A stretch of 25,282 nucleotides of DNA from a virus. Made by a program: the position numbers and the translations under genes. Below the pieces are notes generated by a model. That model did not search any database, was not told the DNA's origin, and saw nothing but the letters and a program-made list of their open reading frames with translations. This document shows, in pieces, positions 5,069-21,584 of the stretch (positions within the stretch are counted from its first letter, which is position 1; every line of letters begins with the position of its first letter). Location of the stretch: IMG/VR virus record IMGVR_UViG_3300005833_000011, positions 1 to 25,282 of that record; one strand, 5' to 3'.

Positions 5069-5445
5069 TTCGTACATTACTGCGGGAGGGCGATATCATT
5101 CAGCTTGGTCCTGAGCATCGCGTGTATGCGCAGGTTCCTAAGCATTTCGTTTATGCCAACAAGCGAGGCGATTTCGAGTTGACATATACGGATGTGCAGA
5201 TTGGCACACGCTTTGAGTATTTCATTGGGCGGTATGTGGTCTATAAAACCTGTTATGACGGTGGCGGGTCGCTGGACGGTCTGCCACACGAGCAGGGCTA
5301 TCATGTCTTCTGCGAAGGATTGGATGAAAAGCGATATCGGGTCGATTTCTACCAAACCGGAGGATTTACGGCAGTGAACCCAGACATCCAGGCCATTGGT
5401 CATGCGCAGCTATCGTATACGGAGCAAACTGCGGGGATACAATGA
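5065..5445 (+). CDS. Unknown 126-aa phage protein
   Basis: The gene begins with an ATGA overlap on the scaffold stop and lacks a clear SD, so translation is probably coupled to the scaffold. The product looks beta-rich, with many aromatic residues (YAQVPKHFVYANKRGDFELTY) and a Cys/His-containing middle (YKTCYDGGG, YHVFCEGLDEKRY). There is no signal peptide or membrane segment. I do not recognise the family. Its place between scaffold and capsid suggests an assembly or virion role, but that is inference. Confidence 0.7.
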   Translation: MIRTLLREGDIIQLGPEHRVYAQVPKHFVYANKRGDFELTYTDVQIGTRFEYFIGRYVVYKTCYDGGGSLDGLPHEQGYHVFCEGLDEKRYRVDFYQTGGFTAVNPDIQAIGHAQLSYTEQTAGIQ

Positions 5446-5651
5446 AACCCGCTTTTGCGAACCAGATAGCCGTGGAGAGTCCCACGATGACGGACGGGCT
5501 CCGAGTTGACCATCCACGCTTAAAGGAGTATATCCTGAATGGCGTGAAGATGGGATGGAACAATGAGCACATTATTAAAGTGACGGGCGCTCCACAGGAA
5601 CTCGTGGGGAAAGTCCGCCATCAGTATGAGAAGGAGAAGATGAAACCGTAA
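5442..5651 (+). CDS. Small helical phage protein, HTH-like
   Basis: This 69-aa protein starts with an ATGA overlap at 5442. An in-frame ATG at 5487 also has a usable SD (ggag 5474-5477) and would give a 54-aa form containing all the conserved-looking sequence. The core (LKEYILNGVKMGW, NEHIIKVTGAP, ELVGKVRHQYE) looks like a short helix-turn-helix of the 'I-x-K-x-TGAP' type seen in small phage proteins. DNA binding is possible but unproven. It is the last gene before the structured capsid leader. Confidence 0.65.
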   Translation: MKPAFANQIAVESPTMTDGLRVDHPRLKEYILNGVKMGWNNEHIIKVTGAPQELVGKVRHQYEKEKMKP

Positions 5652-5799
5652 CACTCCGGGGTGCCCCCGTGTGGGGTCCGGTGGGATCACCGAAAGGTGA
5701 CGAACCTGCCAGCACGTTACGCTGGTAGGAGGGTCTGCATAGCGCAGGCTGCCCTCCGCGATCTGAACTGTTCACACAGTCTCTACACGGAGGTTCCTC
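5652..5799 (+). promoter_or_regulatory. Structured mRNA leader of the major capsid gene
   Basis: This is 148 nt without a gene but dense in inverted repeats. Hairpins seen directly: cgggg/ccccg (5657-5661 with 5665-5669); tcacc-gaaa-ggtga (5687-5700), a 5-bp stem capped by a GNRA loop; ccagc/gctgg (5709-5713 with 5721-5725, extendable by two pairs); ggaggg/ccctcc (5728-5733 with 5752-5757) with inner ctgc/gcag; and actgt/acagt (5767-5771 with 5776-5780). A six-base segment gaacct (5702-5707) is complementary to aggttc (5791-5796), which overlaps the capsid SD (ggagg, 5789-5793), so a closing helix could hide the SD. Competing pairings also exist: cccc/gggg (5665-5668 with 5673-5676) and cggtg/caccg (5679-5683 with 5688-5692). 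I match it to no known riboswitch class. Confidence 0.65.
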
Positions 5800-6735
5800 A
5801 TGTCTTTCACAGCCGATCAAGCCTGGGTGTATCGTTTTCACGACACCCTGCTTCTGACGTTCCAGCAAATGTCCTCGATTGTGCGCGGGTTGCTCGATCC
5901 GGCGATGGTGCACAACGATGTCTCCGCCGCTATCGACTATCACGAGCGTCTCGGCAACGGGATTGCCAACGATGTCGTAGCCCCGTTCGCCCCGACCGCC
6001 GCACAAAACCTGAACCAGTCTCGCCGGGCCGTCACGATGCAGTCTTCGGACTTCACCGTGTTGGTGTCGGATGAGAATACGCTGCGCAGTATGGTCAACC
6101 CGACCAACGGCTTTACCCGGACCATTCTCGCGGGCTGTCAGCGTCGAGCGGATAAGCACGTCATTGATGCCTTGATCGGCACGGCGCAAACCGCGTCCGT
6201 GACGGCAGGGACCGGCGTGATTACCACGAGCACGCAAGCGATGCTCGCGGCACATCAGATCGGCGCGGCTTCGGCCATCGATCTGGCCCGCATCATCAAT
6301 GCGGCAGAACTGCTCTCCAAGAAGGGCGTGCCGAACGACGGCAAGCGGGCGTTCCTCTACTCCCCTGGGCAGTTGCGCGACTTGCTCGCCATCACGCAGG
6401 CCAGTTCCAGCGACTTCACGAAGAACCAGATCCACGACAAGGGCACCATTGATGGGGTCGCGTGGGAAGGGTTCCGCTGGTACGAAATCGCCGATGTCAT
6501 CGCCGACGATGCGAGCACGATCTTGCAGCGCATGCTGCCCGTGCCGTCCTATCGACAGTGCATCGCGTTCCATCCCTCCAGCGTGGGCCTGTCCATTGCG
6601 AAGGAAATCAAGTCGCAGTTGGACCCCAGGCCGGACCTGCAATCCCGACCCATGCAAGTACGAGCCAGCATGATGATGGCCGCAGTCCGAGTGTGGGAAG
6701 GCGGAGTCGTGGAAGTGAGAGCGTTGGAGAACTAA
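5800..6735 (+). CDS. Major capsid protein (HK97 fold)
   Basis: This is the coat protein that builds the icosahedral shell. Its 311 aa are in the usual range, slightly shorter than T7 gp10A. It follows the scaffold and shows a pattern typical of HK97-fold podoviral coats: an N-terminal segment (WVYRFHDTLLLTFQQ), a middle part rich in short helices (GFTRTILAGCQRRADKHVIDAL) and the P-domain-like FLYSPGQLRDLL, and a C-terminal end with RPMQVRASMMMAAVRVWEGG. The SD is ggagg (5789-5793), 6 nt before ATG, and may be sequestered by the leader. A stable hairpin follows the stop. The HK97 fold is inferred from family resemblance. Confidence 0.88.
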   Translation: MSFTADQAWVYRFHDTLLLTFQQMSSIVRGLLDPAMVHNDVSAAIDYHERLGNGIANDVVAPFAPTAAQNLNQSRRAVTMQSSDFTVLVSDENTLRSMVNPTNGFTRTILAGCQRRADKHVIDALIGTAQTASVTAGTGVITTSTQAMLAAHQIGAASAIDLARIINAAELLSKKGVPNDGKRAFLYSPGQLRDLLAITQASSSDFTKNQIHDKGTIDGVAWEGFRWYEIADVIADDASTILQRMLPVPSYRQCIAFHPSSVGLSIAKEIKSQLDPRPDLQSRPMQVRASMMMAAVRVWEGGVVEVRALEN

Positions 6736-7939: not shown

Positions 7940-8218
7940 ATGTCGTTAGGGCGTCCCGGTCAACTCTTCTACGGTCTAGAGGTTTCCAATACGGGGGCGG
8001 GCGTGGCGCTCCCGTCTCAAGGATGCCATTCGATCACGGTCAAGGCAGACATCGACAATATCGGTCTCGTGTATGTCGGGGATAGTCTCGTGACGGCAGG
8101 CACAGGGTTCGATCTGACAGCGGGGGAATCTATTACCGTTCCCGTATGTGACGCCAGTACGATCTTTCACATGGCGTCCGTGGATGGGCAAGTCGTGCAT
8201 TATATCGGGGTCACATGA
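7940..8218 (+). CDS. Small beta-sandwich-like virion protein
   Basis: This 92-aa protein has a pattern often seen in small phage virion proteins: 'HSITVKADIDNIGLVYVGD', then 'GFDLTAGESITVPV', ending 'VVHYIGVT'. The alternating strand pattern and Gly turns suggest a single beta-sandwich or jelly-roll domain. A decoration or adaptor role is inferred from that resemblance and its position. The ATG at 7940 has only a weak SD (ctctcacg upstream). The stop overlaps the collagen-like gene's ATG (ATGA), so the two are coupled, and this domain may act with that fibre. Confidence 0.6.
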   Translation: MSLGRPGQLFYGLEVSNTGAGVALPSQGCHSITVKADIDNIGLVYVGDSLVTAGTGFDLTAGESITVPVCDASTIFHMASVDGQVVHYIGVT

Positions 8219-8850
8219 GCTTCGATCACCAAGACCATACCTATCCTCCTGGTACACGCTCCACGGCAGCGCGTGCTACCGGGGTTCCACTACCTAGCGA
8301 CGGCGAACCTGGCGAAGACGGGAGTCCTGGACCTCCCGGTGCTCCTGGTAGCGCGGGAACTCCTGGCACGACGGGTGCCGCAGGGCCGCAAGGCGTGGCC
8401 ACGTACCTGGAAGCCGACGGGCTTGACGGCGAACCTGGCCCACCAGGGGTGCGGGGAGTCGATGGTGTCGCAGGATCAGCAGGGTCGCAAGGCCCCACCG
8501 GTCCCGCTGTCTATCTTGAGGCTGAACCAGGCGACGAAGGCCAGCCTGGGGTGCCTGGTGTCCGTGGACTCGATGGGACCACAGGCACGACCGGCAGCGT
8601 AGGGCCGATGGGGCCTGCGGTCTTTCTCGATGCGGAGCCTGGTGAGGACGGCCTTCAGGGGGCTCCTGGTGCGACAGGACCGCAAGGACCAGCAGGGGGT
8701 GGCGGCACCGATCCGCCAGGAGGGTCGTATTCGCCAGGGTCATACACCATTGCCACGGGAACATTTCGTCTTGCAGTCAAGCGACAACAGTTCACCACCA
8801 CGCAACGCCTGACAGTTGCAGGGACGGCTCGATTGAGCATTTATAACTAA
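8215..8850 (+). CDS. Collagen-like fibre protein
   Basis: This 211-aa protein has Gly-X-Y triplets over about residues 30-163 (for example GSPGPPGAPGSAGTPG). The triplets are broken by a recurring insertion, TYLEAD (63-68), VYLEAE (99-104) and VFLDAE (136-141), giving a period of about 37 residues. The N-terminus (1-29) is non-collagenous. The C-terminal about 40 residues form a beta-like cap (SYTIATGTFRLAVKRQQF, RLTVAGTARLSIYN) of a kind common in phage virion proteins. It is probably a trimeric head or tail surface fibre that binds cell surfaces or mucus-like matrices, which is inference. It is flanked by overlapping genes on both sides. Confidence 0.8.
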   Translation: MSFDHQDHTYPPGTRSTAARATGVPLPSDGEPGEDGSPGPPGAPGSAGTPGTTGAAGPQGVATYLEADGLDGEPGPPGVRGVDGVAGSAGSQGPTGPAVYLEAEPGDEGQPGVPGVRGLDGTTGTTGSVGPMGPAVFLDAEPGEDGLQGAPGATGPQGPAGGGGTDPPGGSYSPGSYTIATGTFRLAVKRQQFTTTQRLTVAGTARLSIYN

Positions 8851-18706: not shown

Positions 18707-20458
18707 ATGCTGAACGAAGTCGATCCCGCTGCGAACCGCTCCACTGCCAACGGCAGTACCACGGTGTTCGCCTACACCTTTGAGATTGCTAGGAAAGAGG
18801 ATATCGAAGTCCTGGTCGATCTGGTGGTCAAGACCGTAGACACCGACTACACCGTGGATGGCATCGGCAACAGCGGCGGCGGCAATGTCACGTTCATCTC
18901 GGCCCCTGCCAACGCCACCACCGTCACGCGCCTGCGCAAGCAGCCAGGCTCGCAACTCAGCGACCATGTCAGTAACACCTATAATGCGGAGCTGATTGAA
19001 GCGGATCTGGATAAGTTGGCCATGCAGATTCAGCAGGTCCGGGAAACGCTACATCGGGGGTTCTTCCTGCCGAAATCCTCGGCCTTGGTGGATCAGGGCA
19101 TCGACGTGCCGGAGGTGGGCAGGTTTGCCCGTGGCAAGAGCGGGGGTGGCATTGACTGGGCGACGCCCACGAATGCAGGGCCGCTGTCCAGTCCTGTGGC
19201 GATTGCCGATGGCGGGACCGGAGCCACGACGGCAGCCGGGGCACGCACGAACCTCTTGGTCTACAGCGAAAATACGCTAGTGGATGCCAAGGGAGATTTA
19301 CTCATCGGAGCCTCCGATAATACGTTGGCGCGTCTAGCTCCTCCTGCCACGACAGGGTTTGTTCCGACCTACGACCCTTCAGCTACGAACTTCATTTCCT
19401 GGGGGCCACGCGCCCAACAGAATCCCATCATCAACGGCAATATGGAGGTCTGGCAGCGGGGGACCACGTTTGCCGCCGCTGCGAATGGGACGTATACCGC
19501 AGATCGGTGGCGATGGGGGCAATCCGGGGCTGGCGTGGTGACGGTACAACGGTCTACCAACACTCCAGGATTTGGCCTTGGGTTCGGTCAGTTTAATTAT
19601 TCATTGGAGGTCAGCGTCACGACCGCTGATGCGGCGATTGCTGTTGGTGATCTCTATGTCATCTCGCAACGCATTGAGGGACATAATTGGAAACATTTTG
19701 CAGGGAGGCAATTTACAGTAAGTTTCTGGGCGATGTCGAGCAAAACGGGCGTGCATTGCATGGCATTCAGAAACAATGCAAGCGCAACACCTGATCGCTC
19801 GTATGTGGCCGAGTATACCATCACAACCCCGAACTTCTGGGAATATAAAACGGTCACGGTCACAGCCTCACCGGGATTAGGTACGTGGGATTATACGACC
19901 GGGGCAGGATTGGAGATAGCGTTTGTGATTGCGGCGGGGTCCACCTTTCACACGACGGCGAACGCCTGGCAGACAGGAAATTTCTATGCGACCGCCAATC
20001 AAGTCAATGCCATGGACCTCAACACGAACTTCTTCCGCATCATGGGTGTCAAGCTGGAGCTTGGCAGCGTGGCCACGCCGATTCAGTTCCGGTCGTTTCA
20101 AGAGGAGCTGGCGTTGTGCATTCGGTACTATCAAAAATCGTTTCCCTATGCGACAGCACCAGCGCAGAACGCGGGAGACGCTGGAGCAGATGTATTGCTT
20201 GCACCGTTTACGGGTACGACACAGGTAAGTATACCGGTGACATTTCAATCAAGAATGCGCGTAGCGCCAACCTCCGTCACTACGTACAATCCTGGAGCAG
20301 CAAACGCTCAAGCAAGAAATACAACCGACGCCGCTGATGACAACACGACTGGTATTGCCACAACCGAGCGAGGTTTGTTTATTACATTCGCACCCAATGC
20401 GACCAACACGGTTAGTGATGTACATCGCGTGCAGTGGTCCGCCGATGCGGAACTCTAG
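18707..20458 (+). CDS. Tail fibre protein with T7 gp17-type N-terminus
   Basis: This 583-aa protein is the likely receptor-binding protein. Residues 1 to about 125 match the T7 tail-fibre attachment domain: STTVFAYTFEIARKEDIEVL, then YTVDGIGNSGGGNVTF, then RLRKQPGSQLSDHV and a long helix (IEADLDKLAMQIQQVRETLHRG). A fibre-type motif GGTGATTAAGARTNL follows at about 169-183. From N239 it has NPIINGNMEVWQRGTTF plus TADRW, a module common in phage fibre C-termini, ending in FRIMGVKLELG and CIRYYQKSF. The SD is aggagg before ATG 18707. Its stop overlaps the - strand PagL-like stop by 4 nt. Confidence 0.88.
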   Translation: MLNEVDPAANRSTANGSTTVFAYTFEIARKEDIEVLVDLVVKTVDTDYTVDGIGNSGGGNVTFISAPANATTVTRLRKQPGSQLSDHVSNTYNAELIEADLDKLAMQIQQVRETLHRGFFLPKSSALVDQGIDVPEVGRFARGKSGGGIDWATPTNAGPLSSPVAIADGGTGATTAAGARTNLLVYSENTLVDAKGDLLIGASDNTLARLAPPATTGFVPTYDPSATNFISWGPRAQQNPIINGNMEVWQRGTTFAAAANGTYTADRWRWGQSGAGVVTVQRSTNTPGFGLGFGQFNYSLEVSVTTADAAIAVGDLYVISQRIEGHNWKHFAGRQFTVSFWAMSSKTGVHCMAFRNNASATPDRSYVAEYTITTPNFWEYKTVTVTASPGLGTWDYTTGAGLEIAFVIAAGSTFHTTANAWQTGNFYATANQVNAMDLNTNFFRIMGVKLELGSVATPIQFRSFQEELALCIRYYQKSFPYATAPAQNAGDAGADVLLAPFTGTTQVSIPVTFQSRMRVAPTSVTTYNPGAANAQARNTTDAADDNTTGIATTERGLFITFAPNATNTVSDVHRVQWSADAEL

Positions 20459-20868
20459 AATGCCCATCCAGACTGAATGGCAAGGAGATCAAGCCCAATA
20501 TTCGGCTGGGCCAGGCCAGCGTTGGAGAGGTGCTGATATTCCAGCCCGATGCGCCAGGACTGATAGCCGACGAGCAGGCCCGCGCCAAGCTGGAATTGGG
20601 TCTGCGCAGGCAGCTCATACACCGGCTGCATGGCATGCGAGAGGCCCGCTTTCGGTTGGAGGGTGAATGACCAGTCCCCGTGCGTCCATTGACGACCGTA
20701 TTGCCCAACGAGTCCGGCGAGTCCTGAGGCGGATACGTGCGCAGCGGCTCCGAGGCCCGTCTCGCAGGTTTGCACTTCGAGCATGGGCGCATCCATCGTG
20801 GTCGTCTGGTGCCACGAGGTTTGCATCGTGAGGAGATAGCCGATTAGGATGATTGGCGAGAGACACAC
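20455..20868 (-). CDS. PagL-like lipid A 3-O-deacylase homologue (outer-membrane beta-barrel)
   Basis: This 137-aa protein (GTG start at 20868) is on the - strand. Its last 25 residues (HLSNAGLAQPNIGLDLLA to the end SGWAF) match the C-terminal signature of PagL, where HYSNAGLKQPNDGIE carries the catalytic His, Ser and Glu. Here His113 and Ser115 are present and the Glu position is Asp127. Before that, QFQLGAGLLVGYQSWRIGLEY fits the preceding strands, and the protein ends in Phe like an outer-membrane barrel. Known PagL removes the 3-O-acyl chain of lipid A. The N-terminal 15-20 residues (LSPIILIGYLLTM) could be a signal peptide. No SD is seen; an alternative ATG is at 20826. Confidence 0.75.
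   Translation of the reverse strand: MCLSPIILIGYLLTMQTSWHQTTTMDAPMLEVQTCETGLGAAAHVSASGLAGLVGQYGRQWTHGDWSFTLQPKAGLSHAMQPVYELPAQTQFQLGAGLLVGYQSWRIGLEYQHLSNAGLAQPNIGLDLLAIQSGWAF
20821..20850 (+). promoter_or_regulatory. Candidate promoter for the exported-protein cassette
   Basis: TTGCAT (20821-20826) and TAGGAT (20845-20850) are 18 bp apart on the + strand, 32 bp ahead of ATG 20883. This lies inside the 5' end of the - strand PagL-like gene. The matches are partial. A local promoter would let the signal-peptide cassette run independently of the late operon. Confidence 0.3.
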
Positions 20869-20883
20869 AAAAGGAGTATAACA
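20868..20883 (-). promoter_or_regulatory. Candidate extended -10 promoter for the PagL-like gene
   Basis: On the - strand TGT-TATACT (20883-20875) is an extended -10 element. Its spacing puts transcription start at or next to the GTG at 20868, which would make the message leaderless and explain the missing SD. The weak -35 (gtagcg) gives little support. The element overlaps the SD of the divergent + strand gene. Confidence 0.35.
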
Positions 20884-21584
20884 TGAGACGAATGACGCGC
20901 TACACCCCACTCTTCCTGCTGCTGGCCCTCATGGCCTGGTGGCTCCCCGATCAGGCACAGGCCCAATGCCGGGCGTATAGCACCACGAATATATACGCCA
21001 ACGGAGATTCGATGGGCCACTTGGATTGCGATATCAACGGATTGCTGCGCGTCAATCCGAGCGTCCCAGGTTCCGCCACCGCTGCCGACCCAACCTATAC
21101 CGAAGGCTCGGCAGGCAGTTTCAGCTTCGACTTGTCAGGACAATTGCGTGTCAAAGACGACACAGCCAACGTCGGCAAGGACGCGACGAACAATGGCCTG
21201 ATGACCTTTGGCGGCGTGGTGCGGCAGACGACGATTGCCACGGGGCTGTTGGTCGCGGCAGACTGTACCAGTTCGTGCACCTTCGCCTCGGTGCAGCTTG
21301 TGCCCACGGGCATGAAAGTGTTTGAGGGGACTGTCGTCAGTACGACGAGTGGGGCGACGGTCACACAAACACAGAAAATCTATGGAAGCAGTTCGTCCTC
21401 CATGACCCCGGACGATTCGGTCTTGCTCTGTACGCTGACGCTCTCAGGGACGCAATCGACAACGAAGGCCATTGTGGGAGTATGTCCAGGTTTTACCTCT
21501 CCGTATTCCTATTATGGCGTGATCGCCTCAGGGACCACCACGACCGGGAATGCGGCCACCGGCTCTACGAAGGCCATGTACTAA
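20883..21584 (+). CDS. Exported Thr/Ser-rich protein, cassette gene 1
   Basis: This 233-aa protein starts at ATG 20883 behind an aaggag SD. Residues 1-27 form a clear Sec signal peptide: a basic n-region (RRMTR), a hydrophobic core FLLLALMAWWL, and a likely cut after AQA. The mature part is beta-like and rich in Ser, Thr and Gly, with several Cys (QCRAYSTT, LDCDING, ADCTSSCTF, LLCTL) that could form disulphides in the periplasm or outside the cell. I do not recognise a family. It is divergent from the PagL-like gene and leads a run of four signal-peptide genes. The upstream in-frame ATG at 20853 would spoil the signal peptide and lacks an SD. Confidence 0.75.
   Translation: MRRMTRYTPLFLLLALMAWWLPDQAQAQCRAYSTTNIYANGDSMGHLDCDINGLLRVNPSVPGSATAADPTYTEGSAGSFSFDLSGQLRVKDDTANVGKDATNNGLMTFGGVVRQTTIATGLLVAADCTSSCTFASVQLVPTGMKVFEGTVVSTTSGATVTQTQKIYGSSSSSMTPDDSVLLCTLTLSGTQSTTKAIVGVCPGFTSPYSYYGVIASGTTTTGNAATGSTKAMY

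Follow-up and report, generated by a model that had tools for sequence, protein, structure and literature searches.

The gap in front of the major capsid protein (MCP) gene of the virus record analysed here (25.3 kb over its whole length, henceforth the window) almost certainly encodes a conserved structured RNA, which represents a new family of phage leader RNAs outside Rfam. Judging from its complementarities, this leader very likely switches access to the Shine-Dalgarno (SD) sequence of the capsid gene, and we propose that it is probably a cis-acting translational switch of the MCP, off by default and turned on when two hairpins that carry twin internal loops are held together. Few products of infection are as abundant as the capsid protein, and to our knowledge the timing of its translation in tailed phages is mostly unknown beyond a few model phages. 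The switch has been kept across podophages with capsid proteins ~26% identical, and its carriers include culturable Vibrio (K300) and Alteromonas (ZP6) phage relatives, which makes the question testable.

The capsid leader and its relatives

The window encodes a terminase, a portal (head-tail adaptor), a scaffold/protease-like gene, two small ORFs, the MCP and tail genes. A collagen-like protein with Gly-X-Y repeats (8215-8850, + strand; Pfam Collagen, E 1.6e-13) lies among the structural genes, and a homologue of Lipid A 3-O-deacylase (PagL; 20455-20910, - strand, E 1.9e-9), an uncommon phage cargo that might change the host surface, lies on the strand opposite to them. The MCP leader spans the 148 nt from the stop codon of a small ORF, which ends at 5651, to the MCP start codon (ATG at 5800), with the SD GGAGG at 5789-5793. 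The features discussed in this work are as follows:

5442-5651, + strand: small HTH-like protein of 69 aa directly upstream of the leader, a candidate partner (HMM matches, AlphaFold model, weak Pfam matches)
5656-5681, + strand: hp1, the switch hairpin with the first 4x1 internal loop, CCGG[GGUG]CCCC-cgugu-GGGG[U]CCGG (unsupervised motif parse and relatives; loop class linked to that of hp4)
5664-5672, + strand: predicted anti-SD within hp1, CCCCCGUGU, comprising the 5' inner arm and the loop (own-versus-swapped duplex test, covariation)
5687-5700, + strand: hp2, GAAA-capped (GNRA) hairpin UCACC-GAAA-GGUGA (two-sided changes in 4 of 5 pairs, sequence-only alignment)
5705-5729, + strand: hp3, CCUGCCAGC-acguuac-GCUGGUAGG, with the conserved UG/UAGG base (two-sided changes in 4 of 9 pairs)
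5731-5754, + strand: hp4, with the second 4x1 internal loop, GGG[U]CUGC-auagc-GCAG[GCUG]CCC (circular permutation relative to hp1; motif parse)
5752-5758, + strand: post-hp4 strand CCCUCCG, complementary to the 3' outer arm of hp1 (5679-5684), with which it can pair when the SD is hidden (MFE folds)
5767-5780, + strand: small pre-SD hairpin ACUGU-ucac-ACAGU (fold of the window leader)
5785-5793, + strand: SD region ACACGGAGG, with the SD core at 5789-5793, partner of the hp1 anti-SD (swap test, ensembles)
5800-6735, + strand: MCP, the controlled gene (PF19821, Pfam E 6e-39; PHROG 3437, E 5e-48)

The predicted folding energy of the window leader, calculated with nearest-neighbour parameters that ignore pseudoknots and tertiary contacts, is -73.5 kcal/mol, compared with -60.3 kcal/mol for dinucleotide shuffles (z -2.8, with 4 of 200 shuffles as good). 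Capsid searches yielded ~58 distinct contigs from viral_contigs, one MAG and several phage records, many of the contigs being fragments, and most of them (about 50 related phages) contain the same element in the gap before the MCP gene. The original prediction had proposed a covariance analysis of homologous leaders; in such an analysis the leader is conserved and its hairpins covary, with a covariation score of 0.435 among seven seed leaders, compared with 0.16 for shuffled alignments and at most 0.11 for slid ones. In the sequence-only alignment of these seven leaders 99.5% of the cells are paired, and 10 pairs show changes on both sides; in the slid controls the paired cells decrease to 25-55%. 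The GNRA-capped hairpin and the other predicted hairpins are real in the sense that they exhibit compensatory changes in relatives. With a covariance model of seven close leaders, 380 kb of sequence yielded 39 matches at E<=1, each of them a capsid leader on the coding strand. In full records the element occurs once each, before the MCP gene, and the sole second match is at chance level (E 0.78). Insertions aside, it always adjoins the MCP start codon.

The prediction that the leader falls outside the known classes also held, as neither the window leader nor ten related loci have a match at the gathering threshold in Rfam 15; only chance-level E-values were obtained, and the matches found with relaxed E-values were dismissed as chance. 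Literature searches, in which subscription papers are poorly covered, returned no description of the element, and a search of 297 genomes that belong to the carrier MAG's phylum recovered it from that one MAG alone.

The order of the elements is hp1, hp2 (often with a GNRA loop), hp3 (with the UG/UAGG base), hp4, then a hairpin or an H-type pseudoknot, and finally the SD. Type A leaders, which include the window group, form hp2 as a hairpin; its place is taken in type B leaders by a pseudoknot between the hp1 loop and the next segment (0 of 50,000 permutations). Many type A relatives possess the H-type pseudoknot GGCGGUU...CCCGCC instead of the pre-SD hairpin, and its stem 2 covaries (z -8.3). 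A scan with the pseudoknot pattern returned true matches in already known capsid leaders only, the remainder being chance matches.

Several relatives depart from this plan. In the pelagiphages L099-L101, L112 and L113 the leader is reduced to ~100 nt, with an hp4-like hairpin that contains a larger internal loop, and some of them have an SD, GGAGAC, complementary to the 3' arm of this hairpin. The shorter leader of L031 (2885-2971) has a single hairpin between hp1 and hp4 and retains the twin loops. Antisense LAGLIDADG-like ORFs of 172-178 aa lie between the leader and the MCP gene in three lineages, represented by L032 (2474-2998, - strand), L080 (2384-2920, - strand) and L011 (2468-2986, - strand); that of L032 has a Pfam match below the cut-off (E 0.004), while those of L080 and L011 were identified by motif, and in L032 and L011 the leader is found upstream of the insertion. 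In L030, L046, L050, L079, L080, L081 and L033 the leader is directly followed by an N-terminal extension of the MCP, which comprises ~20-60 hydrophobic or basic residues and frequently ends in RGS or RGT.

Pairing of the Shine-Dalgarno sequence

It had been predicted that gaacct (5702-5707) pairs with aggttc (5791-5796) in a closing helix that hides the SD. Both segments are located at these positions, but the helix was rejected: it is reduced to 2-4 pairs in 9 of the 13 leaders checked, and gaacct is part of the base of hp3, a conserved pairing with which the helix competes. The conserved partner of the SD is hp1: in the MFE fold of the window leader the SD is hidden by pairing with 5664-5672, not with gaacct. 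The broader claim, of a multi-hairpin leader able to hide the capsid SD, thus receives comparative support by way of the hp1 anti-SD, and so does the claim of mutually exclusive pairings, as the duplex between 5664-5672 and the SD region (5785-5793) cannot coexist with the inner helix of hp1.

Among 28 leaders, the predicted duplex of hp1 with its own SD has a mean energy of -17.3 kcal/mol, compared with -11.3 kcal/mol (sd 0.63) with the SDs of other leaders, a difference reached in 0 of 20,000 permutations, in which, as in the other permutation tests, related leaders count as independent. This signal is strongest at the offsets of hp1 (z -9.1), while in the gaacct region it is not significant (z about -1.5). 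The core of the pairing is partly generic (CCUCC/GGAGG); with the SD core removed, the 12 nt upstream of it alone still give 0 of 100,000. In an unsupervised covariation scan of 27 leaders aligned with MAFFT, an hp1-SD pair ranks first of 10,153 column pairs, and the pair formed by the x positions of hp1 and hp4 ranks fourth, with E ~0.8, which is not significant alone. Because leaders with GGAGG and with AAAGGA align shifted, the top hp1-SD columns lie one register away from the exact base pair. The pairing comprises 12 pairs in L056 (ACCUCCGUUGAG/CUCAACGGAGGU) and 11 pairs in L015 (CCUCCAUGUGA/UCACAUGGAGG), and a further example is provided by L081 (CCUUUCGG/CCGAAAGG). In the predicted ensembles the SD core pairs with hp1 at a probability >0.5 in ~25 of 28 leaders, and the calculated cost of opening the SD at 37 C ranges from ~2 to 13 kcal/mol across leaders, being 3.7 kcal/mol in the window.

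The arm that hides the SD differs among architectures. The hp1:SD pairing is absent from L043 and L031. In type B leaders the match to the SD is provided not by hp1 but by the 3' arm of hp4 with the next nucleotides (0 of 50,000), except for those related to L016, in which a local hairpin hides the SD with no competition with hp4. In the MFE folds of K300 and MW202510 the SD or the start region pairs with the 5' arm of hp4, and in the pelagiphages the hp4-like 3' arm is able to pair with the SD, both judged by eye. In several architectures, a twin-loop hairpin thus competes with the hiding of the SD. Comparative data thus establish, at the level of predicted pairing, the hairpins and the SD-hiding duplex.

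Twin internal loops and their putative partner

The hairpins hp1 (CCGG-NNRx-CC...GG-u-CCGG) and hp4 (GGG-u-CCG...CGG-NNRx-CCC) display one and the same 4x1 loop, NNRx/u, with opposite closing ends; it was also recovered by a parse based on energy only. K300 has one copy per orientation, and ZP6 has two copies, both in the hp1 orientation. The copies, between which the secondary structure contains no base pairs, fall into the classes AG/U, UG/U, AA/U, AC/C, AC/U and UA/C, defined by the third base, x and u. Of 46 leaders, 42 have hp1 and hp4 loops of the same class, compared with a mean of 15 and a maximum of 27 in permutations, several loops in this table having been assigned by hand; with automatically parsed loops only, the classes agree in 24 of 27 leaders, with 8.6 expected. 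On the MCP tree the class changes on 17 branches for hp1 and on 15 for hp4, and all 15 changes in hp4 are shared with hp1, although recombination of whole leaders could place both changes on one branch. Lockstep of the two loops is thus a comparative result.

In a mosaic quartet of genomes (the window, L001, L003 and L004), the case of L001 and L003 argues against whole-leader recombination as the full account. The MCP genes of the window and L001 are 90% identical in DNA and their leaders 68%; for L003 and L004 the values are 86% for the MCP genes and likewise 68% for the leaders. Between L001 and L003, the backbone of the leader is 86% identical, compared with 77% for the MCP genes and 51% for the scaffolds. 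Nonetheless, both loop copies belong to the U-class in the window, L001 and L002, and to the A-class in L003 and L004. The leader backbone was thus swapped, and the loops stayed with the genome. As the loop class tracks the genome and not the backbone, a partner that acts in trans and is particular to the phage or its host is favoured; with a handful of records and one pair of events, this pattern is suggestive but not proof. On balance, such a partner seems to act on the leader. Variation of the loop class among genomes would be unusual for a metabolite ligand, and we favour a protein operator or a host factor over a fixed metabolite.

We propose the following mechanism. In the open fold both hp1 and hp4 would be formed, with both 4x1 loops displayed and the SD free. 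In the hidden fold, which is favoured by nearest-neighbour energies, hp1 would be broken, its 5' inner arm and loop would pair with the SD and the preceding nucleotides, and its 3' outer arm may pair with the post-hp4 strand, for which the swap test is weak (p ~0.016). Since hp1 is transcribed first, a new transcript would be open at the start and would close later unless something keeps the twin-loop hairpins in place. Binding to both loops by a partner that acts in trans, most probably a phage protein or a host factor, would keep the SD open, so that capsid synthesis would wait for this partner. Binding of the partner would thus turn the switch on, and its target would be translation rather than transcription. 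It is tantalizing to consider a phage protein that binds the two circularly permuted copies and licenses MCP translation, the loop and the protein co-evolving as lock and key, which would constitute a new widespread class of phage RNA switches; this fuller scenario is tentative, with the chances somewhat against it.

The candidate closest at hand is the HTH-like protein, whose gene directly precedes the leader in most contigs. Its AlphaFold model contains three helices (core pLDDT ~90) with weak structural matches to HTH domains, HMM matches occur in nearly all related contigs, and a relative has weak Pfam HTH matches. It would be the specific activator in one version of the preferred explanation, in keeping with its predicted HTH-like fold and with its identity of >90% within and ~60% between the two loop-class groups. 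However, no homologue was found in the genomes of ZP6, K300, MW202510 and HTVC010P or near L033, L075 and L086, and the complete records of ZP6, K300 and MW202510 retain the twin loops, which excludes this protein as the universal partner. By eye, the first residue of the recognition helix exhibits no consistent match to the loop class either, and a residue code of this kind was discarded. We therefore regard the assignment as doubtful; the scaffold, the MCP and host factors remain candidates, and the lockstep, genome-specific loops offer a route to finding the partner.

A different use of the twin loops would be docking on each other with no outside ligand, which would make the RNA an autonomous timer, open when synthesized and closed thereafter. 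Circularly permuted copies in lockstep are what a symmetric contact would give, but self-docking offers no reason why the loop class should stay with the genome when the backbone is exchanged, as in the quartet above, and ZP6 has both copies in the hp1 orientation; we consider it unlikely. Still less probable is a put-like RNA that would target RNA polymerase, by antitermination or antipausing, instead of translation. The putRNA of HK022 functions alone, as a nascent transcript with two stems (PMC9378689), and ZP6 (L105) and K300 (L109) have sigma-70 promoters with 12/12 and 11/12 consensus positions just before the leader. Yet the leader is promoter-proximal only in these two, so that a promoter was rejected as its general feature, and the window group lacks a consensus promoter there; moreover, the anti-SD:SD pairing is conserved, the element adjoins the MCP start codon, and no SD pairing is reported for putRNA (~70 nt).

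An ordinary stable leader, serving only mRNA protection or gene spacing and complementary to the SD by chance, is disfavoured to a slightly greater extent: the MCP requires a stable, highly translated message and any GC-rich hairpin has C-rich anti-SD cores, but neither the outcome of the own-versus-swapped tests, which extends to nucleotides beyond the SD core, nor the lockstep of the loops would be expected from it. The layout had been likened to a riboswitch, an RNA thermometer or a protein-operator RNA. The likeness stands in that the leader, as a riboswitch does, joins an aptamer-like conserved part to an expression platform based on SD exchange; the thermometer is unlikely, and is the least probable reading of all. 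The SD does lie in a helix, but the hiding duplex comprises 9-14 mostly G-C-rich pairs and the conserved lockstep loops are located away from the SD, while known thermometers show little sequence conservation (PMC11182007).

Comparison with known regulatory RNAs

The preferred reading, a capsid switch held open by a partner, resembles translational ON riboswitches such as guanidine-II, in which two similar hairpins accompany an SD/anti-SD exchange: in both, a conserved-loop, aptamer-like part with two similar elements excludes the anti-SD:SD helix. The capsid leader differs in that it is found only before phage capsid genes, its loop identity depends on the genome, it has no counterpart in Rfam and its ligand is putative. 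The leader pseudoknot of T4 gp32 and the mom leader of Mu, whose SD is opened by the small protein Com, are likewise phage mRNA leaders with alternative structures; the capsid leader is distinguished from them by its twin 4x1 loops, its larger multi-hairpin form and its spread over diverged podophages. With the operators of ribosomal proteins it shares the control of an abundant structural protein by its own leader, but the twin-loop fold appears to open the SD, not to hide it. Finally, the ~70-nt, two-stem putRNA of HK022 (PMC9378689) is also a nascent phage RNA with two bulged stem-loops, to which the capsid leader bears a likeness extended by the nearby promoter in some phages; however, put targets RNA polymerase and belongs to early operons, whereas what the capsid leader conserves is the exchange of the SD.
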